This document shows positions 12,095 to 35,387 of a stretch of DNA of 37,012 nt, one piece after another. Every line of letters starts with the position of its first letter. Position 1 is the stretch's first letter. A program made the translations under genes and the position numbers. Where the stretch lies: the NCBI RefSeq assembly GCF_025362505.1, contig NZ_JANYGG010000025.1, positions 1 through 37,012 on the forward strand, in the 5' to 3' direction. The stretch is from Sphingomonas sp. (GTDB lineage: Bacteria > Pseudomonadota > Alphaproteobacteria > Sphingomonadales > Sphingomonadaceae). The notes beneath the pieces were generated by a model. That model ran no database searches and was not told the DNA's origin. It saw only the letters and a list, made by a program, of their open reading frames with translations.

Positions 12095-12110
12095 AGTCGT
12101 CTACTGCCTC

Positions 12111-13616
12111 TCAGGCGTTCGCCGACAGTCGCGCCAGCGCGTCACGGTGCGGCGAATAATTGCTCGCGCACCCCGTAACGAATTTGTCGACGCGGTCCAT
12201 GTCTACCTGTGCGGCCGCGCCGGTCGCCGGCTGGAGTGTGGCGGGATAATTGCCGTAGCCGCCGAGCAGGCAGTGCCAGCTGATCGCGGTGTAAATGTCG
12301 TCGATCCCCTGTCGCGCGACTTCCTCCTCGACGTTTGCACCGGTGAACCAGGCGCTGAACAGTCCCTTGAGGCTGTCGGACAAATGGTCGTGGCCGGTCG
12401 CGTCACGCCAATAGTCGGTGTCGGCACGATTGGCGGCGCGGTAGTGGCAGACGAGATAATCGCGAATGCCTTCGTAGCGGCGGGCGATGGCGGCGTTGAA
12501 CGCCTCGCGGGTCGCCGGCATGTCGGGCTCGGCGTCGATGGTGCGGACGAACCGTTCGACGGTGGCGAGGACGACGTGGAGCGCGGTCGCCTCGAGCGGC
12601 TCGACGAAGCCCTGGGCGAGGCCGATCGCGAGGCAATTGCGCACCCAACTGCGCTCGACCCGCCCGACACGCATCTTGAGGTGGCGGACTTCGCTGTCGC
12701 CGGGGAGGCCGAGGTGGGTCAGCATTTCGGCGGCGGCGGCGCCCGGATCGATGTAGCGCGACGAATAGACATAGCCATTGCCGGCGCGGTTGGTCAGCGG
12801 GATGTGCCACGCCCAGCCGGCCCCGAGCGCGGTCGCACGGGTGCTCACGCCGGGGCCTTCAGACGCGATCGGGGTCGGGGTGACGACCGCGCTGTCGTTG
12901 AACAGGTTGGCGGCGAAGGGCAGGTGCGGCTCACGAAGCGCGCCTTCGATGATCACCGCGCGAAAGCCGCTGGCGTCGACGAACAGGTCTGCGCCGAAGC
13001 GGCGGCCATCGTCGGTGACGAGCGCCTCGATGTCGCCCCGGGCGGTCAGCGCGACCTCGGCGATTGTCGCGTCGAGGTTGGTCACGCCGCGGCTCGTCGC
13101 AACCTCGCGCAGGTAAGCGCCGACGAGGTGCGCGTCGAAATGATAGCCGTAGCTGGTGAAAAAAGGGAAATTTGCCGGGGTCAGCGGCGCGAGGTGATCG
13201 CGCGCGAGCAAGGCGGGGACGTAGAAGCGGTCGGGGTGCGCGACGACGTCATGGCCGTTGCGGCGGGCGTATGCGTTGAAGATGAACTGCGGGGTGGTGT
13301 GGCCATCGAGCTCGGTTGGGAAAGGGTGGAAATAGCGCTCGAACCCGGGGCGGTCGGACCAGCCTTCGAACGCGATCCCGGTCTTGTAGGTGGCGTTGCA
13401 GCGCGGCATCCATTCGGCTTCGGCGATCCCGAGATCGTCGAAAAAGGCCTTGAGTTGCGGGGTCGATCCCTCCCCTACCCCAATGATGCCGATATCGCTC
13501 GATTCGATCAGCGTGACCTTGGTCCCGTTCGGCCCCCAATGATGCTGGAACAGGCAAGCCGCCATCCACCCGGCGGTTCCCCCGCCAAGGATGGTGATGG
13601 TCGCCGGCCGCTTCAT
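12111..13616 (-). CDS. Flavin-dependent tryptophan-halogenase-family protein (second in operon)
   Basis: This 501-residue protein of the PrnA-like family uses reduced FAD, oxygen and halide. It has the FAD motif ILGGGTAGWMAA (about 9-20), the halogenase signature WAWHIP, which suppresses mono-oxygenase behaviour, and a lysine at position 78 (NATYKTG) equivalent to the catalytic PrnA Lys79. The motif after the active-site loop reads FVEPLEATALH, with Ala where many tryptophan halogenases have Ser. The start MKRPATITILGGG is 10 bases after the GH97 stop. Family members beside TonB-dependent receptors and glycosidases are known in proteobacteria, but their role there is unclear and they need not act on tryptophan. 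No flavin reductase gene is seen. Native substrate unknown. Confidence 0.88.
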   Translation of the reverse strand: MKRPATITILGGGTAGWMAACLFQHHWGPNGTKVTLIESSDIGIIGVGEGSTPQLKAFFDDLGIAEAEWMPRCNATYKTGIAFEGWSDRPGFERYFHPFPTELDGHTTPQFIFNAYARRNGHDVVAHPDRFYVPALLARDHLAPLTPANFPFFTSYGYHFDAHLVGAYLREVATSRGVTNLDATIAEVALTARGDIEALVTDDGRRFGADLFVDASGFRAVIIEGALREPHLPFAANLFNDSAVVTPTPIASEGPGVSTRATALGAGWAWHIPLTNRAGNGYVYSSRYIDPGAAAAEMLTHLGLPGDSEVRHLKMRVGRVERSWVRNCLAIGLAQGFVEPLEATALHVVLATVERFVRTIDAEPDMPATREAFNAAIARRYEGIRDYLVCHYRAANRADTDYWRDATGHDHLSDSLKGLFSAWFTGANVEEEVARQGIDDIYTAISWHCLLGGYGNYPATLQPATGAAAQVDMDRVDKFVTGCASNYSPHRDALARLSANA

Positions 13617-13626
13617 CGACGGCGCT

Positions 13627-15663
13627 TCATCTTCCCAGCGATACGAACCGCACCGCCGCGCCCCCGCCCGGCGCGATGCGCAGCGCAAGGCGGTCGGCGG
13701 CGGTAACCCGGCGCTGCTCGATGACGATGCTGCGCGGGTTGGTGCGATAGTCGGCGGTGTCGCCGTCGCGGTAGATTTCGGCGCGCCAGTGGCCCTTGCC
13801 GAGGAAGCTCAGCGGCACGTCAAAGCGGCGCTCAGCCTCGTCGCCGACCGCGCCGACGAACCATTCGTTCTTGCCGCGGGTCTTGCGCGCGATGACCGCC
13901 AGATCGCCGACCTCGCCCGCCAGTACCTTGGTATCGTCCCAGTCGACCGCGACATCCTTGATAAACTGCAGCGGCCCCGGATTGGCGGCGTAATTTTCCG
14001 GCAGATCGGCGGCCATCTGGATCGGCGAATAGATCACGATGTAGAGCGCGAGCTGCTTGGCTAGCGTCGACAGGATCGGCGTATTGCCGCGCCCCATCAG
14101 GCTCAGCACGCCCGGGGTGAAATCCATCGGCCCGCCGAGCATCCGCGTGAACACCAGGTTCGCCTCATGCTCGGGCGGATTCTTGGGCACCCCCCACGCA
14201 TTATATTCCATCCCGCGCTGACCCTCGCGGCTGACCCAGTTGGGATAGGTCCGCCGGAGCCCGGTGTCCTTGATCGGCTCATGCGCGTCGATCGCGATGT
14301 GGCGTTTCGCCGCTTCCTCGACGACCTTCAAATGGTGCCGCACCATCACCTGGCCCTCGTGCCATTCGAAATGGATCTTGCCGTCGGCGCCCATCGCCTG
14401 CACTCCACCGGCATCGGATACATAGCCGGTCTTGATCGCGTCGACGCCCAGTTTCTGGAACATGTCGAACCCCGCGCCCATCCGCGGCTCGTACCACGCG
14501 ATATTGGCGCTGGTCTCGTTGTGGCCGATGAAGTGCACGCCCTTCTTCAGCCCATAGGCGACGACCCCCGGCAAGTCGAAATCGGGATAGGTTTCGGTGA
14601 AGCTGAAGGTGTCGCCGGTGGCGAACCAGTCGCCGTCCCAGCCCTTGTTCCACCCTTCGACCAGCAGCCCGGTGAAGCCGTTGGCCGCCGCGAAGTCGAT
14701 CATCTTCTTCGCATAAGCGGTGGTCGCGCCATGCTTCGCTCCCGACGACCAGCTTTGCGTGTCGAGGTGCATGCCCCACCAGATTCCGACATATTTGCGG
14801 GGGTGGACCCAGCTGACGTCGCCCAATTTGTTGGGCTCGTTGAGGTTCAATATCTCGGCATTGGCGGCATAAAGCGACGGCGCGTCGCCGGTGATCAGCA
14901 TCACCCGCCACGGTGTGACGAACGGCGTATCGCGGCTGACCTTGGGGCCGATCGACGAGGGCGTCAGCACAGCCTTCAGCAACCCGCCCTCGACCTTGGC
15001 GATATTCATCGCCGAATAGTCGACCAGCGCCGCCTCGTGGAACGCGATGTGCGTCCCGTCGGTCAGCCGGATCGTCAGCGGAGTCTGCGCGGTGCCGATG
15101 CTCGCGATCGGGGTGCGGTTGTAAGGATATTCCTCGCGGTTGCTTTCGAACGCCGGGTCCCACCATGCCTCACCGTCACCGACCACGCGGAACTGGGTCA
15201 GTTCCTCGGCGATGTTGGCGGTGGCGAGGTTCGGCTGACGGGGGAATTCAAAGCGGAACGCGACCGCATCGTCGAACAGGCGCGCGACGACCCGCATCCG
15301 ACGGTGGAGCTTGCTACCCTCCTCGAACGTCGCGGAAAGCTCGTTGTAATGGTTGCGGACGCGGCGCCACTCGCCCCACGGCTGCTCCCAGCTCTCGTCG
15401 ACGGACCGCGAGACCTGGTCGACCAGCGTGAAGTGGCGCAGCATCTGCGGCGCGTCGGTGAACAGGAAACCGAGCTGCGAATTGCCGATCAGCGGCTTCC
15501 CCGCTCGGGTAACCGAGTAGTTGATGCGGCCCTCGCCGTTGGTCGTGAGCGCGAGCGCGAGGGTCCCGTCGGGCGAGGTCGCCCGAATTACCGTGTCGGC
15601 CAGCGCCGGCGCCGGGAGCAATGCGGCGAGCGCGAGGAGCAGCTTCGTAACGAACCGCATCAT
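13627..15663 (-). CDS. GH97 glycoside hydrolase (SusB-like alpha-glucosidase)
   Basis: This 678-residue secreted enzyme starts with a signal peptide (MMRFVTKLLLALAALLPAPALA). The N-terminal beta-sandwich contains SPDGTLALALTTNGEGRINY and the barrel contains VGIWWGMHLDTQSW, EGWNKGWDGDW, GYVSDAGG, AIDAHEPIKDTGLRRTYPN and REGQRGMEYNAW. The HE pair and the E in GMEYNAW match the catalytic glutamates of inverting SusB-type members, and the barrel segment reads KTGYVSD where retaining members carry a nucleophilic Asp (VDF), so an inverting alpha-glucosidase is likely. It would release glucose from maltooligosaccharides in the periplasm. The first ATG (15663) overlaps the upstream GH13 stop as ATGA, which selects it over the ATG three bases later. 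Confidence 0.9.
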   Translation of the reverse strand: MMRFVTKLLLALAALLPAPALADTVIRATSPDGTLALALTTNGEGRINYSVTRAGKPLIGNSQLGFLFTDAPQMLRHFTLVDQVSRSVDESWEQPWGEWRRVRNHYNELSATFEEGSKLHRRMRVVARLFDDAVAFRFEFPRQPNLATANIAEELTQFRVVGDGEAWWDPAFESNREEYPYNRTPIASIGTAQTPLTIRLTDGTHIAFHEAALVDYSAMNIAKVEGGLLKAVLTPSSIGPKVSRDTPFVTPWRVMLITGDAPSLYAANAEILNLNEPNKLGDVSWVHPRKYVGIWWGMHLDTQSWSSGAKHGATTAYAKKMIDFAAANGFTGLLVEGWNKGWDGDWFATGDTFSFTETYPDFDLPGVVAYGLKKGVHFIGHNETSANIAWYEPRMGAGFDMFQKLGVDAIKTGYVSDAGGVQAMGADGKIHFEWHEGQVMVRHHLKVVEEAAKRHIAIDAHEPIKDTGLRRTYPNWVSREGQRGMEYNAWGVPKNPPEHEANLVFTRMLGGPMDFTPGVLSLMGRGNTPILSTLAKQLALYIVIYSPIQMAADLPENYAANPGPLQFIKDVAVDWDDTKVLAGEVGDLAVIARKTRGKNEWFVGAVGDEAERRFDVPLSFLGKGHWRAEIYRDGDTADYRTNPRSIVIEQRRVTAADRLALRIAPGGGAAVRFVSLGR

Positions 15664-17300
15664 TCGATCTCCTCGATCACTGCCGCGTAGGGGCCAAGCT
15701 CACCCGTACCGATGTCGCCCGTGCCCGCGATGGTCCGCCCTCCCGCACTCCACGGGGTCGGCTCGGGCGACAGGTTAAAGCTGCAGCGCAGCCGTTCGTC
15801 GCCTTGGTGCCGCTCGAACTGGAGCAGTTGGTCGCCCGCTTCGATTACTTCCAGCGAGCCCCAGCGCAGCGCCGGCCGCTCGTTGCGCAGGTGCAAGGCC
15901 GCGCGGGTCGCGGCGAGCACCGAATGCGGATCTCCCTCCTGCCGGTCGACCGTCAGCGCGACATGCTCCGGCCCGACGGGGAGCCACGGCTGGCCGACGC
16001 TGAACCCGAAGTTCGGCGATGTCGCGCACCACGGCATCGGCGTCCGCACCCCGTCGCGGCTGAGCGTTTGCGGCCAGTTGGCGATCGCCTCGGGGTCCTG
16101 CAATTGATCGAACGGCACATCGACCTGGGTCAGGCCGAGCTCCTCGCCCTGGTAAAGGATGATCGTCCCGCGCATCGCCGCGAGCAGCAGCATCTTCATC
16201 CGCGCGAAGGCCAGACGATGCTCGGGCGCGGCCCAGCGCGACACCGCGCGCGGGGCATCGTGATTCTCGAATGCCCAGCTCGGCCAGCCTATTTCGGGAC
16301 CATCGGGCCACGAGGTGGCGGCCTTGGCGACTAGCGCCGGGGTCAGCCGCTCCGCATAGAGAAAATCGAAGCCATAGGCGCTGTTGAGCCGATGCGAGCC
16401 GCGCGTGAATTCGTGCATCTCGCGCAGCGCGAGCTCGCCGCCGACCTCGGCCAGCGCGAACGCCCCGGGATACTCATCGAACACCCCGCGCAGGCGTTCG
16501 AGGAATTTGACGATGTCCGGGTGCGACTGATTATGGAGATGGAGCTGGAAGTCGAACGGCCGGGTCCGCTTGCCGCCAGGCGGGGCGGGAGGGTTATCGC
16601 TCAGCGCCGGGTCGTGCATCGCGAAGTTGATCGCGTCGATGCGAAACCCGTCGACCCCGCGCTCGAGCCAGAAACGCGCGACGGCGAGCAGCGCGTCCTG
16701 AACCGCCGGATGATGAACGTTGAGGTCGGGCTGCTCGGTCAGGAAATTGTGGAAATAATATTGCCCGCGCCGCGCGTCCCACGTCCAGCTCGGCCCGCCG
16801 AACACCGACTGCCAGTTGTTGGGCGGCGAGCCGTCGGCCTTCGCATCGGCCCACACATACCAGTCGGCCTTGGGATTGGTCCGGTCGGCGCGGCTTGTCC
16901 CGAACCACGGATGTTCGTCCGACGTGTGCGAATAGACCTGGTCGATAATCAGCTTCAGCCCGAGTTCGTGGGCGCGCGCGACCATCGCGTCGAAATCGTC
17001 GAGCGTACCGAAAATCGGGTCGATCCCGCGGTAATCGGCGACGTCATAGCCGAAGTCGCGCTGCGGCGAGGTGAAGAAGGGCGACACCCACACGCAATCG
17101 ACCCCGAGGCTCGCGACATGGTCGAGGTGGGCGGTGATCCCGGCAAGGTCGCCGATGCCGTCGCCATTGCTGTCGGCAAAGCTGCGCGGATAAATCTGGT
17201 AGATCGCCGCGCCCTTCCACCACGGCGCCTGCAGGGCGGCCGACGGGGCCGCTACTGACTGATCGACGAGCGGCTCAACGTGCGACATGGCAAACTGCAT
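15660..17300 (-). CDS. GH13 alpha-glucosidase (oligo-1,6-glucosidase/GH13_23-like)
   Basis: This 546-residue alpha-amylase-superfamily hydrolase has no signal peptide, so it is probably cytoplasmic. It carries WWKGAAIYQIYPRSFADSNG, region I DQVYSHTSDEH, region II GFRIDAINF with nucleophile Asp222, region III ALAEVGGE with acid/base Glu285 and region IV FENHD with Asp348. QYYFHNFLTEQPDLN is common in exo-acting alpha-glucosidases that attack short maltooligosaccharides or sucrose-like sugars. The gene overlaps both neighbours: its 5' end overlaps the secreted GH13 gene and its stop overlaps the GH97 start. The ATG at 17288 (MSHVEPLV) is an alternative start; neither has a strong ribosome-binding site. 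Confidence 0.93.
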   Translation of the reverse strand: MQFAMSHVEPLVDQSVAAPSAALQAPWWKGAAIYQIYPRSFADSNGDGIGDLAGITAHLDHVASLGVDCVWVSPFFTSPQRDFGYDVADYRGIDPIFGTLDDFDAMVARAHELGLKLIIDQVYSHTSDEHPWFGTSRADRTNPKADWYVWADAKADGSPPNNWQSVFGGPSWTWDARRGQYYFHNFLTEQPDLNVHHPAVQDALLAVARFWLERGVDGFRIDAINFAMHDPALSDNPPAPPGGKRTRPFDFQLHLHNQSHPDIVKFLERLRGVFDEYPGAFALAEVGGELALREMHEFTRGSHRLNSAYGFDFLYAERLTPALVAKAATSWPDGPEIGWPSWAFENHDAPRAVSRWAAPEHRLAFARMKMLLLAAMRGTIILYQGEELGLTQVDVPFDQLQDPEAIANWPQTLSRDGVRTPMPWCATSPNFGFSVGQPWLPVGPEHVALTVDRQEGDPHSVLAATRAALHLRNERPALRWGSLEVIEAGDQLLQFERHQGDERLRCSFNLSPEPTPWSAGGRTIAGTGDIGTGELGPYAAVIEEIE

Positions 17301-19164
17301 AACTCAAGGGTTCGAGGGTGACGTGAACGCTGCCTGGGGCCCCGGCGACAGCGGGGCAGGCGCCGATCGCGGCGGTGAAGCTGGTCGAGCGGGTCTCGAC
17401 GACGACATTCTGGTCGATGGCGGTGCTGGCGCTGTTGAACAGCAGCAATGTTTCATCGCCGGTACCCGGATCGAACCGCGAGACGGCGAACAGGCCGGGC
17501 TTTTTCGAGGCAAAACGGATGACCTGCAGCCCGCGGGTCAGCGCCGGCGAGGCGGTGCGGATTCGCGTGAGTTTTGAAAGCAACTGGTAAAGCGGATGAC
17601 CCCTATCGAAATTGTCGCGCGCGGTGGTCGCGCCCGACCCGATCAGCCGCTCGCTGTTATAGGATGCAACGGCGCTCGCGAACATGTCCTGCCGCGAGTC
17701 CTGGTCGCCGCCCGTGCCGGCGAAGCCCTGCTCGTCGCCCGAATAGATCGTCGGCACCCCGCGCAGGGTCAGCAGCATCGCATAGCCGAGTTCGACCCGC
17801 TTCAGCACCTCGGCGTCGCTCGCGGCGGGGAACGCCGTGCGCACGAAGTAACCGAACCGCCCCATGTCGTGATTGTCGAGGAAGGTCGCCTGGCGAAGCG
17901 CGCCTTCGGCCCCGCCCTCGTAGAGCGGATCGGCGGCGAACAGCTTAGCGAGGAGGTCGGTCCCGGCAGACCCGGCGACCACGCCCTTCACCGCGGCGGC
18001 GAAGGGGAAGTCGAGCATCGCCGGAAGCTTCGCCTCGCGCGTGTGGACCGCAGTGTGGGCCGGATCCATGTCGGCGGTGGAAGCCTCGCCGAAGATGTGG
18101 AAATTGGGAATACCGCGCGCCTTGGCGCGAGCAAGCATCGCCGGGGCGAACGCCGCCCAGAACTCCGCGTTCACATGCTGTTCGGTGTCGATGCGGAAGC
18201 CGTCGATGCCGAAGCGGTCTATCCACTGGCCGTAGATTTCGATCATGCCCGCGACGACCGCTGGATTCTCGGTGAACAAATCGTCGAGCCCGACGAAATC
18301 GCCTTGCTGGCTCGATTCACCCCTGAAGGTCGAATCGCCGCGGTTGTGATAATAGGCCGGGTCATTGAGCCAGGCGGGGACTTTCACATTTCGCTCCGTC
18401 GCCGGGACGGTAACAGTGTAAGCATAATCGGGATCGGTCAACCGCGCGAAATTGGCCGGGCTGCCGTCGCGCTCGCCGTTGAAGCCGGGGTTGATCGGCT
18501 TGCCCGCGATCCCGCCCCGGCGCTGGTAGGGATAGTCGGCGATGCTGCGGTAAGGGCATTCGGTCTTGCCCTGGCATTCAGCGAACTGGATCACGTCGGC
18601 GGTGTGATTGGCGATGATGTCCATATAGACTTTCATCCCCCGCGCGTGCGCCGCCGCGACCAGCACGGCGAAGTCGGCATTGGTGCCGAGATGCGAGTCG
18701 ACGCGGGTAAAGTCGGTCACCCAGTAACCGTGATAGCCCGCGCTTTCGTGCCCCGGCAGTCCCTGAACCGGCTTGTTGCGGAACACTGGCGCCAGCCAGA
18801 TCGCAGTGGCGCCGAGCCCCTGGATATAATCGAGCCGGCGCACCACGCCCTTGAGGTCGCCGCCGTGGTAAAAACCCTTGTCGGCGGGGTCGAACCCGGT
18901 CCGCAGCCGGTCGCCCTTCAGCCCGCCGCGATCGTTGGCGCGGTCGCCATTGTCGAACCGGTCGGGCAGCAGGAAATAGATCACTTCATCCTGCGGCAAG
19001 CGGGCGCGGAGGTCGGCGAGCGGGACGGCGGGCGGGACGGTGGGCGGGACGGTGGGCGCAGCGAGAGCCTCGCCGCAAATCCCCATCGTCGCCACGGCGC
19101 CAAGCACAAGGCGGGTGAGGTTCCGGGCAAACGGGGCAGCCCGGCGCGTTGTGAAACTGGTCAA
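17275..19164 (-). CDS. Secreted GH13 alpha-amylase-family enzyme, TTG start
   Basis: This 629-residue secreted amylase or cyclomaltodextrinase-like enzyme has a signal peptide (about 1-36, hydrophobic LTRLVLGAVATMG then ALAAP), a short TVPPTVPPAVP linker, and the GH13 barrel: MDIIANHT (region I), GFRIDTEQHV with Asp326, HIFGEAS with Glu360 and FLDNHD with Asp433. PDRFDNGDRANDRGG and YHGGDLKGVVRRLDYI are typical of the amylase-like group near MalS/cyclomaltodextrinase. I chose the TTG at 19164-19162, because it overlaps the preceding halogenase TGA as TTGA, has AAGGAAAT just upstream, and places the signal peptide at the N-terminus; no ATG is suitably placed. It would cut alpha-glucans outside the cytoplasm for the receptor/transporter system. 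Confidence 0.9.
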   Translation of the reverse strand: MTSFTTRRAAPFARNLTRLVLGAVATMGICGEALAAPTVPPTVPPAVPLADLRARLPQDEVIYFLLPDRFDNGDRANDRGGLKGDRLRTGFDPADKGFYHGGDLKGVVRRLDYIQGLGATAIWLAPVFRNKPVQGLPGHESAGYHGYWVTDFTRVDSHLGTNADFAVLVAAAHARGMKVYMDIIANHTADVIQFAECQGKTECPYRSIADYPYQRRGGIAGKPINPGFNGERDGSPANFARLTDPDYAYTVTVPATERNVKVPAWLNDPAYYHNRGDSTFRGESSQQGDFVGLDDLFTENPAVVAGMIEIYGQWIDRFGIDGFRIDTEQHVNAEFWAAFAPAMLARAKARGIPNFHIFGEASTADMDPAHTAVHTREAKLPAMLDFPFAAAVKGVVAGSAGTDLLAKLFAADPLYEGGAEGALRQATFLDNHDMGRFGYFVRTAFPAASDAEVLKRVELGYAMLLTLRGVPTIYSGDEQGFAGTGGDQDSRQDMFASAVASYNSERLIGSGATTARDNFDRGHPLYQLLSKLTRIRTASPALTRGLQVIRFASKKPGLFAVSRFDPGTGDETLLLFNSASTAIDQNVVVETRSTSFTAAIGACPAVAGAPGSVHVTLEPLSYAVCHVAR

Positions 19165-20678
19165 TGCATTTCCTTGTTGCCGGGACCGACCATCGCCGTG
19201 ACGAACTCGCGGTGAGTCGGGAATGTCTGTGCCTTCGCGCGATAACTGTTCGCGATGCTCTCCATGAACGGACCGACATCCTCGCCCGGCACATTGTCGG
19301 CCAATGGCGACCATGACTGCGGCATGATGCCCTGCCCGATCATTACCTGACCCCAGCTGTCGTCGAGGAACAGCTCATCCTCCTCGCGCATGAACAGGCC
19401 GGCTTCGCGGAACAGCGCGATCTTTTCGGCGAGCGTGTCCGGCAATTCGACGTGCCGGCAATGATCCCAGAACGGCTCGCCCTCGCGTTCATTGGCGACG
19501 TAATGGAGCAGGATGAAGTCGCGGATCCGCGCCCACTCGATGTCGGACAGGCGGTTGAACGTGTCGCGGCCGAACGCGACGCGCGCGCCATCGTTCGGGA
19601 GCAGGTTGAGCAACCGGCCGAGCGCCGACTGGACGAGGTGAATGCTGGTCGACTCGAGCGGCTCCATGAACCCCGCCGCGAGCCCCAGAGCGACGCAATT
19701 GTGCGACCAGTGTCGGGCGCGATGGCCGGTGGTGAAGCGGATCAGCCGCGGGTCGGCGAGCGGCTTGCCATCGAGGTTGGCGAGCAGCAGTTCGCTCGCC
19801 TCGTCCTGAGATATAAACGACGAGCAGTACACATGGCCGTTGCCGGTGCGGTGCTGGAGCGGGATGCGCCATTGCCATCCCGCTGGCCGCGCCATCGACT
19901 GGGTATAGGAGCGGAAGGCGGACGAGGATTCACATGGCACGGCGAGCGCGCTATCGCACGGCAGCCAATGGCTCCAGTCGACGAATGGAACCTCGAGCGC
20001 GCCGCCGAGCAGCAACGACCGAAAGCCGGTGCAGTCGATGAACAGGGTCCCCGCGACGCGCCGGTCGCGGTCGAGGTGCAGCGCGGTGATGTCGCCACTC
20101 TCGGCATCGCGCTCGACCTCGCCGATGAGCCCCTCGATGCGCGTGACGCCGCGGGCCTCGGAGTAACGGCGAAGCATAGCGGCGAACCCGGACGCATCGA
20201 AATGATAGGCGTAGGACAGGTCGGGGATCGCCTTGGCGCTGCCGTTGCCCTTGCCCATCCGGCCGAGCCGGGCGGCCGCCACGTTGATGCTGTAATCGCC
20301 ATAGCCCGCCGCGACGCCCATCTCGCGACCGCGCAGCCATAGCTGGCGGAACGGGATCAGTCCGACGCCGCGCCCGACCGTGCCGAAACTGTGGATGTAG
20401 GAGTGGCCCTTGCGCAGCCAGTCGACGAACTCGATGCCAAGCTTGAAGCTGCCGTTGGTGTCGCGCAGGAATTCGGCCTGGTCGATACCCAGCCCGACGA
20501 TCAGATTGTGGATTTGCGGGATGGTCGCTTCGCCGACGCCGACCGTGCCGATCTCGTCGGATTCAACGAGCGTGATCGACGCGCGGTTGCCGAGGAAGCG
20601 AGCGAAGGTCGCCGCCGCCATCCAGCCCGCCGTCCCGCCGCCGGCAATCACGATATCGAGGGGCGCGGATTGGGTCAT
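19161..20678 (-). CDS. Flavin-dependent tryptophan-halogenase-family protein (first in operon)
   Basis: This 505-residue PrnA-like protein has VIAGGGTAGWMAA (about 10-22), the catalytic-type lysine Lys79 in NGSFKLGIEF, the halogenase motif WQWRIP and GFMEPLESTSIH with the usual Glu-Ser pair. It differs clearly from the second halogenase at 12111-13616, so the two are old paralogues or independent acquisitions. The start at 20678 (MTQSAPLDIVIAGGG) has AGGG upstream; the longer frame to 20717 would run into a terminator hairpin and is rejected. It is the first gene after the receptor and its stop overlaps the TTG start of the secreted amylase. The native substrate is unknown; free tryptophan is not implied by the context. 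Confidence 0.88.
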   Translation of the reverse strand: MTQSAPLDIVIAGGGTAGWMAAATFARFLGNRASITLVESDEIGTVGVGEATIPQIHNLIVGLGIDQAEFLRDTNGSFKLGIEFVDWLRKGHSYIHSFGTVGRGVGLIPFRQLWLRGREMGVAAGYGDYSINVAAARLGRMGKGNGSAKAIPDLSYAYHFDASGFAAMLRRYSEARGVTRIEGLIGEVERDAESGDITALHLDRDRRVAGTLFIDCTGFRSLLLGGALEVPFVDWSHWLPCDSALAVPCESSSAFRSYTQSMARPAGWQWRIPLQHRTGNGHVYCSSFISQDEASELLLANLDGKPLADPRLIRFTTGHRARHWSHNCVALGLAAGFMEPLESTSIHLVQSALGRLLNLLPNDGARVAFGRDTFNRLSDIEWARIRDFILLHYVANEREGEPFWDHCRHVELPDTLAEKIALFREAGLFMREEDELFLDDSWGQVMIGQGIMPQSWSPLADNVPGEDVGPFMESIANSYRAKAQTFPTHREFVTAMVGPGNKEMH

Positions 20679-20691
20679 CGAGCGGCCCTGC

Positions 20692-20729
20692 AAGAAAATG
20701 GCCCTCGCCGCAATCAAGCAGCGAGAGCC
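20692..20729 (-). terminator. Intrinsic terminator or attenuator between receptor and halogenase
   Basis: On the minus strand GGCTCTCGCTGC (20729-20718), loop TTGATT and GCGGCGAGGGCC (20711-20700) form a 12-bp stem with two G-T pairs, followed by ATTTTCTT. It starts 10 bases after the receptor stop codon and ends 14 bases before the halogenase ATG. It would cap receptor mRNA and reduce read-through into the enzyme genes, giving more receptor than enzymes. Confidence 0.75.
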
Positions 20730-20738
20730 ATCAAAGGA

Positions 20739-23404
20739 TCAGAACTTGTAGGTGAAACCGGCCAGGAACCGGCGACCATAGGTCTGGTACTTGAGCCAGG
20801 ATTGCGGCAGCGAGACGACGCCGATGGTGGCCTGTCGTTCGTTGGACAGGTTCTGGCCCTGCAGATAAACCGAGAGCCCGCCGAGCGTCGATCCCTTGGG
20901 GAAATCATAGCCGAGCTGCGCATCGTAAATGTCCTCGGCCAACACATATTGCTGGTCGAAATTGCCGTTGAACGCCACGAAATCACCGAGGAAGCCCGAG
21001 CGATGGCGCAAGCTGCCGCGAGCGCTGAAGCCATCACCTTCGTAGAAGGCAGTCACGTTTGCGACGAACTTCGAATAGCCGGGAATCGGGGTCGTTGTTC
21101 CGTTATAACGCTTGACCGAGGTCTTGGTGTAACCAACGCCGCCGGTCAGACCAAAGCCAGAGAGGACCCGCGAGAAAGTCTCGAACTGCAGAGTTCCGGC
21201 AAGCTCGACACCATAGAGTTTTCCGCCGCTTGTGTTGACCGGGCCATTGAAGTTGCCGATCGGCGATGACGGCACGTTACCTGACGGCACCGGGAACCCC
21301 GAATAGTCGAACGTGGTCGATGTCGCCTGTTGATCAATATAAGTATCAAGATGTTTGTAGAAGCTCTGCAGGGCAATATAGCCCTTGGAACCAAAGTATT
21401 TCTCGATGGTCAGATCGACTGCCTTGGCCTGATACGGGCGAAGCAGGGGATTTCCGCCTCCGCCTGTGTAGATCGGGGGCGTAAAGGTATTGTTGATTCC
21501 AAATCCGACATTGTTGTTCAGCTGGTCAAGTCGCGGACGCATCATCTGCTTTGCCGCGGCAAAGCGCACGACCACATCATTCGCGAACCGGAAATTCAGG
21601 TTCAGGCTGGGCAGCACCATCCAGTAGGAGTCGGTGATCGAAGGCTTGGCAAAGCCAGCCGACCTCACCGAGGTATGGATACCCTGCACGCCGATGTTGC
21701 CGGTCAGGTGAACCGAGCCAAAATCGCCATCCAGCGGCGCCATCGCGTAAGGCGTCCAGACCTTCTCGGTCAGATTATAGCCCTGGCTCGCCCCATAGGT
21801 GTTGGGGATGAACGAGAGAACGCCCGCGGCCAGAGCGGCCCGCGGGTCGAAGCTGAGTATCGGGCCCAGCCCGCGATCAAGCGTGAATGGCGTGAGCAGG
21901 AGGTTGGCCGGAATCGCCGCCGTGAGGGCCCCGTTCGGTGGCGACAACGTGGCTTCGGTCTGCGTCACAACCTTGGATCGGTCGGTAAAATCGACGCCGA
22001 CCTTGATCGACTTGACCAGCCCGCCGACTTCGCGCTCGATTTCCGCGCGCGCTTCCTTGAGGTCGTCGTTGCTCTTGCGAACCTTGTCATACCCGGCCTG
22101 GACCGGCGAACCGCTCCAGCCTTCAACGTCGGTCAGCACCAGCGCGGAGCTGGCGCCATTGTAATCGCTGACAAAAATCGGGCCCTTGTCGGTAAAGGTA
22201 TAGGAAATTGTCGCCGTCGCGTTGGGAAGTGCGCGACCGAGGCCAGCAGTCGTCTCCAGATTATGATCGCGCCGCTTGGTCTTCGAATAGCTGAGATCGA
22301 CCAGCCCGCGCCAGCCATTGTGACCGTCCCACTTGGCGTTCCAGCCGAGCGAGATCTGATCGGTCTTGCGGTCGATCGCATAGTTTTCGATGACCGGGGT
22401 GCCGCGGATCGTCGCTGCGGTCACCAGTCCGTTGGTCACGGTCGAGCTGACGATGTGGTCATGGCCGCAGTAGCCGCCACAATTGAACGGCATTTCCCAG
22501 CCGCGCTTGTCGACGTTGTCGGTGAACTTCGAATAGAAGCCGTCGACGCTCATCGTCAGATTGTCGCTGAGCTTGGCCTCGATCGTGGCGTTGGTGCCGA
22601 AGCGCTTGAGCTGGTCGGATTCGAACCAGCTTTTGACGCCGTTCATGCCCTGGCCGCCGCCCGGATATCCGCCATAGCCCCAGGCATTCCAATCGCGGGT
22701 TTGATAAGGGTCGCTGGTGTAGGCCGCCGACAGCGCGACGCCCACGCGCCCATCGGCGAACTGGTCGACGTAGGTACCGAAGACGCGGAAGCCCTTGTCT
22801 TTGCTGTTGGGCTGGAGCTTCTGGTCGACAAGGACGCCGCGTGCGCCGACCGCGAGGATGCGCTTGGCGACTTCGAGTGGACGGATGGTGCGCAGGTCGA
22901 TGTTGCCGACGAGGCCGCCCGCCGTGTGATCGGCTTCGGTCGTCTTGTAGACGTCGACCCCGGCGAGCACTTCCGACGGATACTGGTCGAACTCGACCGC
23001 GCGGCTGTCATTCGAGGTGGTCTGCTGGCGCCCGTTGAGCGTGGTGGTCGAGAAGTCCGGGCCAAAGCCGCGGATCGAGATGATGTTGGCGCGACCGGCG
23101 CTCCGCTGTGAGGCGAGGCCGGGAAGGCGCGCGATCGACTCGCCGATGCTGTTGTCGGGCAGTTTGCCAATGTCTTCGCTGCTGACCGATCGACGACCGT
23201 CTCGGCCTTTTTCTTGCGCGCGGTGGCGCTGCGCAACGCGGCGCGGAAACCGGTGACGACGATCGCGTCCTTGTCGTCGGTTGCAGTGGGCGCGGCGGCC
23301 GGGGCGGCCGGTTCAGGCGCGGCCTGAGCGTAAGCCGGGCTGGCGAGCGCAAGTGCGACCCCGAGTGCCGACGTCGAATAAAGCGATTGCGTGAATTTCG
23401 TCAT
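20739..23404 (-). pseudogene. TonB-dependent outer-membrane receptor, frameshifted
   Basis: This outer-membrane receptor for a carbohydrate would be about 888 residues if read in one frame. It has a signal peptide (MTKFTQSLYSTSALGVALAL to AYA), an AP-rich stretch, DAIVVTGFRAALRSA as TonB-box-proximal sequence, the plug with GKLPDNSIGESIARLPGL, ISIRGFGPDFSTTTLNGRQQ and EVLAGVDVYKT, and a barrel ending in LAGFTYKF. The frame changes near 23189: the codons for VVD are followed by CGGTCAGC where one extra T would give VVDSVSSEDIGKLPDN, so one base seems lost. The ATG at 23404 has GGAGGGG upstream. By position after a LacI regulator and before amylases it should take up maltodextrins or similar alpha-glucans. 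Either a real null allele or a sequencing error. Confidence 0.88.
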
Positions 23405-23631
23405 GATTATCAATCCCCTCCGGGCCGCTTTCGAGAGCGGCGCACCATCCGTCTTTACGGATTGGGGACGCTAATGACTTAATCGTGGGCGCTCGTCGCT
23501 ATACATACGTATGCAGCTTCGCTACTCCTTGCACTGCTTCAACCTTGTGGCGTGATAACAACGATTTAGATTTACTTTTCGAACGACGAAATCGGCCCGA
23601 AGAAGCCAGATGAGTCGAAGATGGAACCCAG
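23405..23631. promoter_or_regulatory. Divergent control region, TonB receptor / LacI regulator
   Basis: These 227 bases separate the receptor start (23404) from the LacI-type gene (23632). The region is clearly AT-richer than its flanks. It holds a perfect palindrome (23504-23513), a hairpin GCCGCT/AGCGGC in the receptor leader (about 23425-23442), the receptor ribosome-binding site, and an 11-base direct repeat CCAGATGAGTC (23607-23617 and 23628-23638) whose second copy contains the LacI start codon. I could not assign firm -35/-10 pairs. Confidence 0.6.
23504..23513. promoter_or_regulatory. Operator-like palindrome CATACGTATG
   Basis: This 10-bp perfect palindrome lies in the receptor promoter region, 100 bases before the receptor ATG. 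LacI-family dimers bind such even palindromes with a central CG. A related sequence, GTATTCGTATGC, occurs upstream of the MFS gene (26144-26155), so both could be targets of the adjacent LacI-type regulator. Confidence 0.45.
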
Positions 23632-24660
23632 ATGAGTCAGCGCCGTCCCACTTCGTTCGACATCGCCGAACTCGCCGGCGTGTCGCAGCCGACTGTCTCG
23701 CGCGCGTTGTCGGGCAATCCGTCGGTCAGTGCCGAGACTCGGGCACGGGTTCTCGCGGCGGCCGCGCAGCTCCAGTACAAGGTCGACAAGAACGCCTCGG
23801 GCCTCCGCCGCCAGCATTCACGCACGCTGGCGCTGCTGTTCTTCGAAGATATGACGCCCGAGGATTCGCTGATCAATCCGTTCTACTTGTCGATGCTCGG
23901 CAGCATGGTGCGAAGCTGCGCCGGCCGCGGATATGACCTGCTCATCTCGTTCCAGCAGCTGTCGTCGGACTGGCATGTCGACTATGAGGACAGCCGCAAG
24001 GCCGACGGGATCATCCTGCTCGGCTATGGCGACTATCTCCAATATCGGCCGCGGCTCGAGAAATTGATCGAGCAGGAGACGCATTTCGTTCGCTGGGGCA
24101 GCCCGCGCGAAGGCCAGATCGGGACTACCATCGGGTCGGACAACGAAGGCGGCGGGTTCACCGCGACCGAGCATCTGCTCGGGCTGGGACGGCGCCGCAT
24201 CGCCTTCCTCGGCAGTGCGTCGCCGGCCTATCCCGAGATCCTCGACCGCTGGATCGGCTATGCCCGGGCGCATGACGAGGCGGGGCTTGCGGCCGACCCG
24301 GCGCTGGCCTTCGATGCCTTGCCGAGCGAGGAGGACGGCGCCCGCGCGGCCGTGGCACTGCTGTCGTCGGGCGCGCCGTTCGACGCCGTCTTCGCCTCGA
24401 GCGACCTCGCCGCGATCGGCGCGATGCGGGTGCTTCAGGAGGCCGGGCGATCGGTGCCGCAAGACGTTGCGATTGTCGGTTTCGACGATCTCACCGCAGC
24501 GCGGCTGGCGCGCCCTGCGCTGTCGACCGTCGCTCAGGGTGCCCGGCTAGCTGGCGAAGCGCTGGTCGAGGCGCTGATCGACGCGATCGAGCGTGGCGCA
24601 TCGACCAGCCGGCTGCTGCCGGTCGAGCTCAAGGTGCGCGGGTCGAGCGTTTCGGTTTAG
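23632..24660 (+). CDS. LacI-family transcriptional regulator of the alpha-glucan locus
   Basis: This 342-residue DNA-binding repressor has an N-terminal helix-turn-helix (FDIAELAGVSQPTVSRALSG, about 9-28), a hinge region (KVDKNASGLRRQ) and a periplasmic-binding-protein-like sensor domain with DGIILLGYGD, TEHLLGLGRRRIAFLG and VAIVGFDDLTAARLARPAL. The sensor ligand is probably a product of alpha-glucan breakdown such as a glucoside or maltose. It is divergent from the receptor operon and thus well placed to control it and itself. No strong ribosome-binding site precedes the ATG. It converges on the antiporter gene with a 4-base overlap of stop codons (24657-24660). Confidence 0.94.
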   Translation: MSQRRPTSFDIAELAGVSQPTVSRALSGNPSVSAETRARVLAAAAQLQYKVDKNASGLRRQHSRTLALLFFEDMTPEDSLINPFYLSMLGSMVRSCAGRGYDLLISFQQLSSDWHVDYEDSRKADGIILLGYGDYLQYRPRLEKLIEQETHFVRWGSPREGQIGTTIGSDNEGGGFTATEHLLGLGRRRIAFLGSASPAYPEILDRWIGYARAHDEAGLAADPALAFDALPSEEDGARAAVALLSSGAPFDAVFASSDLAAIGAMRVLQEAGRSVPQDVAIVGFDDLTAARLARPALSTVAQGARLAGEALVEALIDAIERGASTSRLLPVELKVRGSSVSV

Positions 24661-30332: not shown

Positions 30333-31697
30333 TCAGTTCAGCCGCGCGCCCTGGCGACGCAGTTCGGCCTGAACTTCGCCAATGTCGACCGTCACGAACG
30401 ATGTACCGGTTCTCAGTGACACCGCGGCCGCCGTTCCGGCTCCTTGTCCGGCAACCGCACAGCACATCATGTTGCGCACCGCAGCGTGGCTGACCCGGTC
30501 GCCGCCGATCGTCCGCCCCGCGACGATCAGATTGCCGATCCCCTTGGGCAGCAGCGCGCGATACGGCACGTGGAAATAGCGACCGGTCGTCGGCAGGATG
30601 AGCAGGCCATAGCCATCGATGAATTCGGGAAAAATGCCGATCGAATCCTCGAACCGCCCCTCGCCGCGCACGTCGGCGTCGCGCATATTATAATGCGCGT
30701 CGATCTTGCGTGTGTCGCGAATGCCGAGCGTCATTCCGAAATTGCGCAGCTTGGCGGCCTCGCACCCCGGCATGAACCGCTTGAGCGCCGCGACCGCGAG
30801 CATCGCCTGCTTGCGCCCCCCCATCTCGCCCTTCGTCAGGTCGTCGGGATCGGTGCCGTCGAGGGTCAGATGAACCATGTTGAGATAGGTCAAGTCGCCC
30901 TGGTCCGAGACCGTTCCCCAAGTGCCGGCAATGGTCGCGAGATTGTCGGGCAGCAGGCCGGCCTCGAACGCTTTCCGGAACGGTTTGCGCAGGAACGGCG
31001 AGAACATGTCGTCCTCCTTGCCGTCGGTGGTGATGTCCCATTCGCCGTTGCCCGCCCAGTCCTTGTAGGTCTGCGGATCGGCCTTCACCGCGTCGATGAA
31101 GCGCGCCTTGTTGACCCCGCACATCGAGAACATGACCGAGACCGACATCATCTCGGCCTTGGGAGTGATGAAGGTCGGCGCGCCGCAGCGGGCGACGAGG
31201 TCGGCGTCACCCGTCGCATCGACCACTCGCTTGGCGAGGATCGCCTCACGCCCGGCCTTGCTCTCGACAATCACGCCCTTGATCTCACCCCGCTCGACGA
31301 TCGGCGCGACGAACATGCGGTGGAGCATCGGGTGGACGCCGGCTTCCTCGATCATCACGTCGGCGACATATTTGAATGCCTCTGCATCGAGTGCGTGGCT
31401 GATCGACTGCGGCTCGGGGATCGCCGCGCCCATCGCTTTCGCGCGGTCCTCGAACTCGCGGCCGATGCCTTCGCTGTCGATCGTCGCCGGGTGGCGGTAC
31501 CAGGCAAAGCCCTCGACCCCGACCTGGGTGATATTGCCGCCGAAACAGCCGTAGCGTTCGAGCAGCGTAGTCTGCGCCCCCGCCCGGGCAGAGGCGAGCG
31601 CGGCGGCAAGGCCCCCCGGTCCCGAGCCGACCACCAGCACTTCGGTCTCGTGGATCACATCGACGTGGCGCGCGGGCTCGACAATCGACCTCGTCAT
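30333..31697 (-). CDS. FAD-dependent oxidoreductase (FAD_oxidored family)
   Basis: This 454-residue flavoprotein has the dinucleotide-binding motif [22 protein letters not shown] near residues 20-41, [34 protein letters not shown] and, near the C-terminus, [20 protein letters not shown] with GQGAGTAAA for the FAD ribityl site. This family includes proteins named xanthan-lyase-like oxidoreductases and is poorly characterised. The start overlaps the GMC oxidoreductase stop as ATGA, so the two are translationally coupled. It may act on a downstream product of the same pathway as the GMC and aldehyde dehydrogenases. No signal peptide is visible. The substrate is unknown. Confidence 0.85.
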
Positions 31698-33367
31698 CGC
31701 TGTGTGGTCTGCCAGTTCTCGGCGACGGCGAAAGGCAAGTTCGACGGGGCCAGCAGCGGCTTGCCGAGGATGTGGTCGGCGCCTTTTTCGCCGACCATGA
31801 TCGTCGGTGCGTTGAGGTTGCCGGTGGTGACCGACGGCATCACCGATGAATCGACGATCCGCAGCCGATCTATACCGATCACGCGCAACTCGTGATCGAC
31901 CACCGCCATCGGATCGTCACGGCGACCGATCTTGCAGGTGCACGACGGATGATAGGCGCTCTCGACCTTGGCGGCGATGAACGCGTCGATCGCCTCGTCG
32001 CTGGTGACGTCGGCACCCGGCTGGATTTCGCGTCCGCGATACGGCGCGAATGCCGGCTGCTGGAAGATCTCGCGGGTGAACCGGACACAGGCGCGCATGT
32101 CGACCCAGTCTTCGGGCTGGCTCATGTAGTTGAAGCGGATCACCGGCTTGTCCCGCGGGTCGGTCGAGCGCAGCGTAACGCTCCCCCGGCTGTTCGATCG
32201 CATCGGCCCGACATGTGCCTGGAAGCCGTGCTCGCTCGCCATCGTCGAGCCGTCGTAAGCGACCGCGAGCGGCAGGAAGTGATACTGGATGTCGGGATAG
32301 CGCACCCCCGGCCGGCTGCGGATGAAGCCGCAGCTTTCAAAATGATTGGTCGCGCCCAAACCGTCGCGCCGCAGCAGCCAGCGCGCGCCGATCAGCGCCT
32401 TGGCGATCGGGTTCATCGACGAATAGAGCGTCACCGGCTTGGTCGCCGCCATCTGGAAATAGAATTCGAGATGATCCTGCAAATTCGCGCCGACCCCCGG
32501 GCGGTCGGCGACTACGTCGATCCCATGTGCTCGCAGTTCCCCGGCGGGGCCGATGCCCGACAGCTTGAGCAGTTGCGGGTTGTTGATCGGGCCACCGGCC
32601 AGGATGACCTCTTTCCCTGCACGCACCGTTCGCGACACACCGCCCCGCTCGTACTTGACGCCGGTCGCGGCGCCGTTCTCGACCAGCAGGCGTGTCGCCA
32701 GCGCATGGGTCACCACCGTCACATTGGACCGCTTCATCGCCGGTCGCAGATAGGCATTGGCGGCGCTCCAGCGGACGCCTTGATGGACGGTCATGTCCAT
32801 CCGGCCAAAGCCCTCCTGCTGATAGCCGTTGTAATCGGCGGTCAACGGATAACCGGCCTCGCGCGCGGCATCGAGCCACGCCTGGTGCAGCGGGTTCTTC
32901 AACGTTCCATAGCTGGTGTGAAGCGGCCCGTCGCTGCCGCGATACTCGTCGCCCCCTTCCTCGCGCGTCTCGGCCTTGCGGAAATAGGGCAGGACGTCGG
33001 CATAGCCCCACCCTCGCGCGCCCTCCTCGCGCCACCGTTCGAAGTCGAGCGCATTGCCGCGCACATAGACCAGCCCGTTGATCGACGAGGATCCGCCGAG
33101 CACCTTGCCGCGCGGCGTGTGCAGCCGCCGCCCGCCGAGCGCAGGCTCGGGCTCGCTTTCATATTGCCAGTTGTACCTGGCCTTGTTCATCGGGATGGCC
33201 AGCGCGCTCGGCATCTGGATGAACACCGAGCGATCCGACCCGCCAAACTCCAGGACGAGCACGCGGTTGGTGCCGTCGGCGCTCAGCCGGTCGGCGAGCA
33301 CGCATCCCGCCGAGCCCGCCCCGACGATGACATAATCATACTCGGCCGCGTGATCAGTAAGGGGCAT
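31694..33367 (-). CDS. betA: GMC-family oxidoreductase, choline-dehydrogenase-like
   Basis: This 557-residue FAD enzyme of the glucose-methanol-choline family has [18 protein letters not shown] at the N-terminus, [20 protein letters not shown] (GMC signature 1), [17 protein letters not shown] (signature 2) and the C-terminal active-site pair in [12 protein letters not shown] and [15 protein letters not shown]. These patterns fit BetA, which oxidises choline to betaine aldehyde. The ATG at 33367 ([11 protein letters not shown]) has TGGAG 8 bases upstream and overlaps the BetI-BetB gene by 14 bases; an ATG at 33388 is possible. Related alcohol dehydrogenases share the motifs, so choline as substrate is likely rather than proven. 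Confidence 0.85.
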
Positions 33368-35351
33368 CGATCCGCTCCATCGCGACATAGACGCTCTTCA
33401 GCTGGGTATAATGCTCGATCGCCGCACGGCCATTCTCGCGCCCGAGCCCGGACTGCTTGTTGCCGCCGAACGGCAATTCGATCGGTGTGATGTTGTAGCT
33501 ATTGATCCAGCACGTCCCGGCTTCGAGCCGCGCGACAACCCGGTGCGCCCGCGTCAAGTCGTTGGTGAACACCCCGGCGGCAAGGCCGAACTCGGTCGCG
33601 TTGGCACGCGCCAGAACTTCCTCTTCGTCATCGAAGTCGAGCACGGTCATGACCGGCCCGAAAATTTCCTCGCGGACGATCCCCATCGCGTCGCTGCAGT
33701 CGGTGAAGATCGTCGGCGAGACGAAATTTCCGCCCCCGCAGCTACCGCCGACGAAGCGCTTGCCGCCGGCGAGCAGCTTCGCCCCCTGGCGAACCCCAAG
33801 CTCGATATAGCCCAATACTTTCGCCATGTGCGCCGCCGAAATCAGCGCGCCGACCTGCGTTGCCGGATCGAGCGGATCGCCGATGACCATTGCCTCGGTC
33901 CGCGCCTTGAGCCGGGCGAGGAACGCGTCGCGCACCTTGCGCTGGACGAACACCCGCGTGCCGTTGGTGCATACTTCACCGGCCGAGTAGAAATTCGCCA
34001 GCAGCGCGCCCGACACCGCTTCGTCGAGGTCGGCGTCGTCGAAGATGATCAGCGGCGATTTTCCGCCGAGCTCGAGCGTGACCTGCTTGAGCGTCGCAGC
34101 GGCATCGGCCATCACCTTCTTGCCGGTCCCGACCTCGCCGGTCAGCGAGATCTTGGCGATGCCGGGATGGCGGCTGAGCAGGCGACCGGTGTCGGCCTTG
34201 CCCTGCACGACCTGGAACAGGCCCTCGGGCAGACCCGCCTCGAGGTAGATTTTCTCGAGCTCGATCGCGCTCAGCGGGGTCAGTTCGGCGGGCTTGAAGA
34301 TCATCGCATTGCCGCAAGCCAGCGCCGGCGCCGACTTCCAGCAGGCGATCTGGATCGGGTAATTCCACGCGCCGATCCCCGCCACGACCCCGAGCGGTTC
34401 GCGCCTGGTATAGCCGAACGCGCCGGGACCAAGGTCGACCTGCTCGCCCGCGATGGTGCGCGCGATCCCGGCGAAATACTCGATGCAATCGGCACCCGAC
34501 AGCACGTCGACCGCCGCCGTTTCCTGGATCGGCTTGCCGGTGTCGCGGGTCTCCAGCTCGGCCAGTTCGGCGTTGCGTTCGACCAGCAGCGCGGCGGCGC
34601 GATGCAGGATCCGGCCCCGTTCGACCCCCGGCAGCCGGCCCCACGCGCGCTGGGCTTCGGTCGCCCGCGCCACCGCCCGATCGACTTCCGCCGCGCCGTC
34701 GATCCGGATCGTCGCGAGCACCGCTCCCGTCGCCGGATTGATCGTGTCGAAGTGCGTCTCGACCGGGGCGGCGGACTTGGCGCCGATGTTGCGGTCGAGG
34801 AAATCGCAAATCAGCTCGCGCGCGAAACCGCTTTGCAGCTCCGAGCCGCCCGACAAGGCCGCGCGCAGCCACACACCGTCGATCATCGCCGCGATCGTCT
34901 CGGCCATCCTCGCGACCGCACTGGGATCGACTAGCTCTCTCAAAGAATGGCGCAAGTTCGACAGCATCCGCCGCTGATGCGCCCGCTGCACCCGCGCCAG
35001 CCGCGGCACGTGCAACGCCTGCCCCCAGAACGACAGCCACACCCGCGCCGTCTCGAGGGCGAACTGGCTCTGGCCGAGATGCGCATCGATCAGCGCCTCA
35101 ATCCGCCCGCGTGGACCCGACGCCATCTGCATCCGGGTGGCGGCATAGCGGTTCAACTTGCCGACGACCGAACGAAACGCCGCCTCGAGCAGCGCGTCCT
35201 TGTCGCCGAAATAATGGATGATCAGCCCAGCCGATACGTCGAGCCGCGCCGCAACCTTATTGAGTTTGAAATCAACGACGCCCAATTCGGCCAGTGTCGC
35301 GATGGCGGCATCGACGATTTCGAGCCACCGAGTCTTCGGTCCCTTGCGCAT
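33354..35351 (-). CDS. BetI-BetB fusion: TetR-type repressor joined to betaine-aldehyde dehydrogenase
   Basis: One frame of 665 codons from the ATG at 35351 encodes two proteins that are normally separate. Residues 1 to about 190 are a BetI-like TetR regulator: helix-turn-helix [20 protein letters not shown] (about 30-49), then [20 protein letters not shown] and [19 protein letters not shown], as in BetI. From about residue 200 ([10 protein letters not shown]) an almost complete BetB follows, with the NAD site GAWNYPIQ, active-site Glu427 in LELGGKSPL, nucleophile Cys461 in [12 protein letters not shown] and [16 protein letters not shown] at the end. The usual first 15-20 residues of BetB are absent, and I find no stop or internal ATG at the join. 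Separate proteins could arise only by cleavage or an unusual internal start. A TTG at 35369 is an alternative start. The enzyme domain would oxidise betaine aldehyde to glycine betaine. Confidence 0.9.
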
Positions 35352-35369: not shown

Positions 35370-35387
35370 ATTGAAGAGCCATTCAAT
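35370..35387. promoter_or_regulatory. BetI-box-like operator upstream of the fusion gene
   Basis: ATTGAA (35370-35375), six bases, then TTCAAT (35382-35387) form an inverted repeat 19 bases upstream of the ATG. A further TTCAA lies at 35390-35394. TTGAA/TTCAA half-sites are those I associate with BetI operators in other proteobacteria, though usually with a shorter spacer. On the minus strand TTGAAC (35394-35389) could also be a -35 element, so a bound repressor would block RNA polymerase. Confidence 0.5.

Follow-up and report, generated by a model that had tools for sequence, protein, structure and literature searches.

BetIB, a conserved fusion of the repressor BetI with betaine-aldehyde dehydrogenase, as a probable autorepressor-enzyme of choline oxidation

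Can one polypeptide be both the repressor of a catabolic operon and one of the enzymes that the operon encodes? The question is raised by a contig of Sphingomonas sp. (NZ_JANYGG010000025.1, assembly GCF_025362505.1), whose 37,012 nucleotides are referred to here as the window. A preliminary description of the window had claimed that one uninterrupted frame of about 665 codons carries a whole TetR/BetI-like regulator followed by a betaine-aldehyde dehydrogenase (BADH), and translation, Pfam and NCBIfam bear this out. We call the fused betI-betB open reading frame (ORF), at 33354–35351 on the minus strand, betIB and its product BetIB. On the evidence set out below, BetIB is most probably a bifunctional protein, at once the autorepressor and an enzyme of a betIB-betA operon, for which PutA offers a comparison.

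The fused frame and its distribution

Read from its ATG to its stop, the betIB frame comprises 665 codons with zero internal stops. A BetI-type TetR repressor occupies residues 12–188 and is followed, after a linker of about nine residues, by BADH at residues 198–665. Three Pfam domains exceed their gathering scores in the window protein: TetR_N (PF00440, residues 12–58, positions 35178–35318; 36.1 bits against a cut-off of 24), the BetI-type C-terminal domain TetR_C_6 (PF13977, residues 80–188, 34788–35114; 94.2 bits against 27) and Aldedh (PF00171, residues 198–654, 33390–34760), beyond which the protein runs on to residue 665. Frame and domain matches together make a DNA-binding domain and a complete enzyme domain one chain. 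Among the NCBIfam equivalogs, the enzyme half scores above the BADH cut-offs of PRK13252 (776.7 versus 593) and TIGR01804 (670.8 versus 668.6), and the repressor half above that of the BetI model PRK00767 (167.4 versus 118). The linker (residues 189–197, 34761–34787) has no in-frame ATG, GTG or TTG at the junction. The enzyme half lacks about 21 residues of an N-terminus that is usual, though not defining, in BADHs: residue 199 aligns with residue 22 of BADH chain 2wme_A.

All three domains are matched in each of 66 aligned fused proteins. C461, E427 and N330, which we take to be the catalytic Cys, Glu and Asn of aldehyde dehydrogenases (ALDHs), are invariant across the 66; in the window the codon of Glu427, within the motif ELGGK, lies at 34071–34073 and that of Cys461 at 33969–33971. 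Also invariant in the aligned proteins are L43, H46, Y47 and F48 of the repressor half, presumably part of the recognition region. An AlphaFold model built on the 66 proteins (mean predicted local distance difference test score, pLDDT, 83.2; predicted template modelling score 0.68) has an all-helical domain up to residue 188, then a loop, and an ALDH domain from about residue 200. The pLDDT drops below 50 at 191–196, within the linker, and at 302–308, 310–318, 625–629 and 636–649 within the enzyme. When the model was searched against PDB folds, the 50 matches listed were all ALDHs, with a betaine aldehyde dehydrogenase at the top, and included no TetR protein. By sequence, the whole protein retrieved BADH and other ALDH entries from the PDB, and the repressor half generic TetR entries.

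Is this architecture a singular event? Of 181 loci examined, 164 carry a BetB match above 500 bits, and these divide into 101 fused loci, 32 with a separate same-strand betI and 31 without betI in the stretch examined. The 101 fused loci represent 92 distinct coding sequences and occur in sphingomonads, Caulobacterales, Hyphomicrobiales, Acetobacteraceae and metagenome-assembled genomes (MAGs) labelled Gammaproteobacteria. The two-domain architecture that the preliminary description had proposed to seek in sphingomonads is therefore found there and beyond. Named sources are Chakrabartia, Novosphingobium, Ancylobacter, Aureimonas, Acidocella, Gluconacetobacter, Rhodomicrobium and Methylobrevis, besides MAGs labelled Caulobacterales and Gammaproteobacteria; Chakrabartia godavariana (L047) and Ancylobacter aquaticus DSM 101 (L058) are cultured isolates. 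In Komagataeibacter saccharivorans the fused frame (L118, 4025–6055) is carried by a complete plasmid next to betA, and its annotation reads only betB. A scan of 397 genomes of the family returned 17 single-frame full-length matches, the window's own among them, and three more relatives, at 68–82% identity, that cover the enzyme half alone. In GTDB species genomes, the best 80 of at least 534 confirmed relatives all have both domains in one open frame (80/80), a sample that favours fused genes by construction. A one-piece full-length tblastn match was discarded as proof of fusion, since Indioceanicola (L120) and Burkholderia multivorans (L119) matched in this way and have separate genes. In one of the 80, a sphingomonad MAG (L088), the fused frame stops early within the enzyme half, leaving an open frame of 573 amino acids. 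The fusion is a true, old and conserved protein of many bacteria and not a sequencing error. What was described for the window thus holds as a fusion, but it is not peculiar to that genome; it belongs to a widespread subfamily of apparently single origin.

In the genome samples drawn here, the fused form is a minority outside the sphingomonads. A class-wide draw of 385 genomes gave 48 besides the window's with a match at 1e-150; loci were taken from 29 of these, 2 of them fused (L121, L122), and the other 19 genomes show frames of 476–577 amino acids, which cannot hold both domains. Among 196 genomes drawn across the order, 11 besides the window's matched, 6 of them fused; a phylum-wide draw of 398 gave 110 besides the window's, with 4 fused among the 29 loci examined. 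The 14 other genomes of the window's genus listed in the order-wide draw are without such a gene, that is, a close BetB; therefore the window copy may be a transfer, or its contig may be a stray of the bin, whose estimated contamination is 5.89%.

A putative operator and a repressor half that looks alive

Does the repressor half still have an operator to bind? A perfect palindrome, ATTGAA-N6-TTCAAT, lies at 35370–35387, 18 nt before the ATG of betIB, and is a putative operator conserved upstream of fused genes. It is the only match in the window at one mismatch or fewer, with 0 in 100 shuffles, and no other site in the 2.64 Mb genome is perfect. From the 92 distinct coding sequences, leaving out L083 and L099, we obtained 90 distinct stretches of upstream sequence, none longer than 160 bases. 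Allowing 2 mismatches in its 12 positions, the palindrome occurs in 76 of the 90, where shuffles predict 0.76, and in 0 of 90 control stretches inside betB; it is perfect in 18, has one mismatch in 30, two in 28 and three or more in 14. A whole-genome search of 17 among the 31 other fused genomes brought to light 11 perfect sites, spread over 10 genomes; 8 of these sites immediately precede the fused ORF. Such genome-wide counts are less exposed to a post-hoc choice of motif. A wider regulon in the window's genome was considered and set aside: of the two one-mismatch sites (C30, C123), the one examined, on C123, sits inside a large unrelated frame.

The spacing of the half-sites sets many fused loci apart. 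The classic ATTGA-N4-TCAAT is perfect in 23 of 31 separate betI loci versus 3 of 90 fused upstreams, and ATTGA-N8-TCAAT in 14 of 31 versus 32 of 90, in a comparison that is rough because the separate set was searched over 390 bases and the fused set over 160 (L131, too short, was left out). In many fused loci, the window among them (others fall among L009–L024 and L038–L117), the half-sites are 4 bp wider apart than the inner half-sites of separate betI genes. Doubled boxes of classic appearance are retained in Faunimonas (L068) and Rhodomicrobium (L064). Two interleaved TTGA-N8-TCAA sites can be discerned in TTgATTGAaCGTTCAATaAA, the consensus of the separate boxes, and a single one in the sphingomonad box, ATTGAAta..CGTTCAAT; two dimers would then bind the classic box.

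Selection has acted on both halves of the protein. In 20 chosen pairs analysed by Nei–Gojobori counting (one saturated, some with high synonymous divergence, dS), the ratio of non-synonymous to synonymous divergence (dN/dS) of the BetI half is 0.008–0.181 in 18 of the 19 scorable pairs, and purifying selection on both halves is shown by computation. In addition, the fused frame is the sole strong BetI in 31 of 31 fused genomes searched (44–68% identity), the next TetR proteins reaching at most 31% identity (E 8.7e-16). The window's own genome likewise holds no second strong BetI, its next TetR match being at 25% identity, and a strong separate BetI encoded elsewhere can be dismissed for these genomes. 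With low dN/dS, the lack of any other strong BetI, a conserved palindrome and the genome-wide site counts, the repressor half looks alive and apparently still controls its own genes. The suggestion that the dehydrogenase is joined to an operator-binding domain agrees with these data, the domain being to all appearances in working order.

Several observations weigh against this reading. The palindrome was picked after viewing the same upstream stretches, the 14 of 90 with three or more mismatches depart from it, and the half-site spacing of fused loci differs from that of classic BetI boxes. Seven of the 17 fused genomes are without a perfect site, and the perfect sites of two others (G127 and G1223), together with the second one of G299, lie elsewhere in the genome. 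No sigma-70-like promoter was found at the window palindrome. The repressor half of the window protein falls short of the TIGR03384 BetI cut-off (179.7 versus 201.3), and in one pair (L113/L117) the dN/dS of the BetI half is 0.504.

Origin of the fusion

How often did the two genes fuse? In a tree of the BetI domain (133 rows) all 101 fused sequences fall on one side of a branch that parts them from the 32 separate BetIs, with 98% support; a single fusion is therefore likely, in a tree for which the program warned of long branches. The trees of BetB alone do not show this. That of 164 rows needs 7 label changes, 4 of them forced by well-supported branches, and has no single fused clade; in a 98-row tree, a clade of fused and three unfused BetBs is not rejected by the approximately unbiased (AU) test (p 0.08). 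Independent fusions in each lineage, at which the BetB tree hinted, were rejected on the BetI tree, with its one branch, and on the AU result, which leaves one clade standing. The simplest reading would be one fusion, followed by loss of BetI in a few lines. Five unfused BetBs lie inside fused clades. Two of them (L025, L026) start just before the motif F-x-S-I-N-P-A and are without the N-terminal strand of BetB, an absence that matches the fused sphingomonad genes, and L027 is similar; all three look as if BetI had been lost again after the fusion. The remaining two have no such scar of fission, which tells against the simplest reading: L123 has a normal BetB N-terminus, and L132, on a long branch, a long one.

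In 10 of the 32 unfused loci only one stop codon parts betI from betB, which share a frame (by chance, a shared frame alone is expected in one third). Loss of the stop, followed by erosion, would therefore be an easy route to fusion. A gap of 8 residues separates the halves in 16 sphingomonad sequences, that of the window among them, and one of 10–39 residues in the other fused sequences listed; many of the longer linkers end in a BetB-like N-terminal strand, and some keep an ATG near the old start. The preliminary description had ascribed the missing BetB N-terminus to deletion of the gene boundary. The shortening itself, by about 21 residues, stands; it is probably not the fusion event, because the 8-residue gap is shared by those 16 sphingomonad sequences and the other fused proteins listed have 10–39 residues.

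The operon, its proposed control and known systems

The gene next to betIB is betA, which encodes choline dehydrogenase (31694–33388, minus strand; TIGR01810 betA, 814.2 versus a cut-off of 732.1) and whose longest frame shares 35 nt with the end of betIB. A same-strand betA match lies downstream in 100 of the 101 fused loci, within 400 nt in 99. Of the 73 fused loci with more than 1.5 kb of room, 72 have betA on the same strand no more than 400 nt away, the exception being L108, whose betA match begins 597 nt downstream. One fused locus (L020, from G327) is the sole one of the 101 without a downstream betA match, within the 1500 bases examined. The third gene of the probable operon encodes an FAD-dependent oxidoreductase (PF12831; 30333–31697, minus strand). 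Its position is conserved, with a homologue after betA in 14 of 15 sphingomonad loci that have at least 3.2 kb downstream (not in L106), and the 25 NCBIfam rows shown for it all score below their cut-offs. A major facilitator superfamily transporter (PF07690; 29034–30311, minus strand) is a possible fourth gene, as strand and spacing suggest. Farther off, 8809–24660 is an ordinary-looking sugar-use locus with an Edd/IlvD-family dehydratase, glucose-6-phosphate dehydrogenase, GH97, two alpha-amylase family enzymes, a TonB receptor and a LacI regulator.

What would such a protein do in the cell? We infer that BetIB binds DNA, takes choline as its effector, assembles into dimers and tetramers and is active as an enzyme. 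One polypeptide would then be both the repressor and the second enzyme of the oxidation of choline to glycine betaine. The N-terminal BetI domain would dimerise, bind the palindrome just upstream of its own start and shut off betIB-betA; homology with separate BetIs is the reason to expect that BetIB represses this operon and yields to choline. Relief of repression by choline would allow betA and betIB to be made, whereupon BetA would turn choline into betaine aldehyde and the BetB domain would turn betaine aldehyde into glycine betaine. Because both are one chain, repressor copies would rise one-to-one with the enzyme, giving strong negative feedback and a quick shut-off once the choline is spent.

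Could the single frame mean less than this? An assembly or base-calling error might have deleted a stop, and the genome, in 138 contigs of which the window is one, has the estimated contamination given above. The same architecture in independent loci, 92 distinct coding sequences with cultured isolates among them, rejects such an error in effect; moreover, the N-terminal segment of BetB is gone together with its start, and not just frame-shifted, and we give this explanation next to no weight. It is improbable, to a far lesser degree, that two proteins arise from the one frame by internal initiation or by proteolysis of the linker, the fusion being transient. The linker is indeed a low-confidence part of the model, and some fused relatives, such as Ancylobacter, keep an in-frame ATG near the former BetB start that could initiate a free BetB, which is a point against a bifunctional chain; on the other hand, the linker offers no in-frame ATG, GTG or TTG in 26 of the 92 distinct fused genes, that of the window among them, and a Shine–Dalgarno-like stretch precedes 4 of the 41 linker ATGs listed over all fused loci, a count made for ATG only. 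A shade less credible again is that the BetI half has given up regulation and is carried along as a passenger of a working enzyme. The annotation of the Komagataeibacter gene as plain betB, the persistence in fused clades of BetBs without an attached BetI (L025, L026, L027) and a BetI-half identity below that of the BetB half in most sphingomonad pairs compared would fit a passenger; purifying selection in 18 of 19 scorable pairs, the invariant L43, H46, Y47 and F48, the conserved upstream palindrome and the complete lack of another strong BetI in 31 of 31 fused genomes argue for a repressor at work.

The autorepressor-enzyme that we favour may also be more than the sum of its halves. Nicotinamide adenine dinucleotide (NAD(H)) or betaine aldehyde in the BetB domain might alter DNA binding, so that the operon reads flux and not only choline; we entertain this as a tentative extension. 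Both functions are on one chain, and PutA offers a precedent, as its regulatory activity is reported to be enhanced by proline and inhibited by NAD+ and FAD (PMC9132996). Persistence over several orders also suggests an advantage beyond co-expression, because separate betI and betB are often adjacent anyway. Linker length, which varies from 8 to 39 residues, counts against a rigid allosteric path. More speculative still is a fuller version, in which DNA binding is set by choline, by the catalytic state (NAD/NADH, betaine aldehyde) and by the dehydrogenase tetramer; the tetramer would pair repressor dimers that in unfused species would be paired on a doubled operator of two interleaved TTGA-N8-TCAA sites, and this would explain the single-site operators of sphingomonads.

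What are the implications of a repressor built into its own enzyme? Repressors are usually scarce and enzymes abundant, and an unusual consequence of BetIB would be a repressor as abundant as the enzyme. One chain would serve both roles, and has lasted from an apparently single fusion over several alphaproteobacterial orders. A plain betB annotation can conceal the repressor of the pathway, as on the Komagataeibacter plasmid (L118). We found no paper on a BetI–BetB or TetR–aldehyde dehydrogenase fusion in the open-licence literature, which is no proof of absence; in PMC7824335 the word 'fused' refers to GMT/DMT.

BetIB resembles BetI (TetR family; TIGR03384/PRK00767) in its TetR_N and BetI-type C-terminal domains, in the half-sites ATTGA/TCAAT and in its place beside betB and betA, and differs in the in-frame fusion to BetB, in half-sites that are often 4 bp wider apart and, for the window protein, in missing TIGR03384. 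Separate BetI is a choline-responsive repressor, and the palindrome of Ruegeria pomeroyi BetI1 falls within a protected region spanning the predicted -35 box (PMC12442346). The enzyme half is like BetB (PDB 6wsa, 3r31, 2wme) in equivalog scores, invariant catalytic residues and best PDB matches by sequence and fold, except that about 21 N-terminal residues are replaced by a short linker and a whole repressor. Joining of a regulator and an enzyme is shared with BzdR, in which the enzyme-derived part serves regulation, whereas the catalytic residues of BetIB are intact. PutA holds an ALDH-fold module and binds DNA through a ribbon-helix-helix fold; BetIB differs from it in DNA-binding fold, pathway and substrate. 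BzdR is thought to have arisen by an enzyme gaining a DNA-binding domain (PMC3602430), and PutA is described as a self-regulating, promoter-binding enzyme of catabolism (PMC9132996), as BetIB would be. With cultured isolates at hand and a single strong operator in most sphingomonads tested, BetIB would be a simple natural case in which to ask whether the flux through an enzyme can be signalled by that enzyme to the promoter of its own gene, an idea put forward for PutA.

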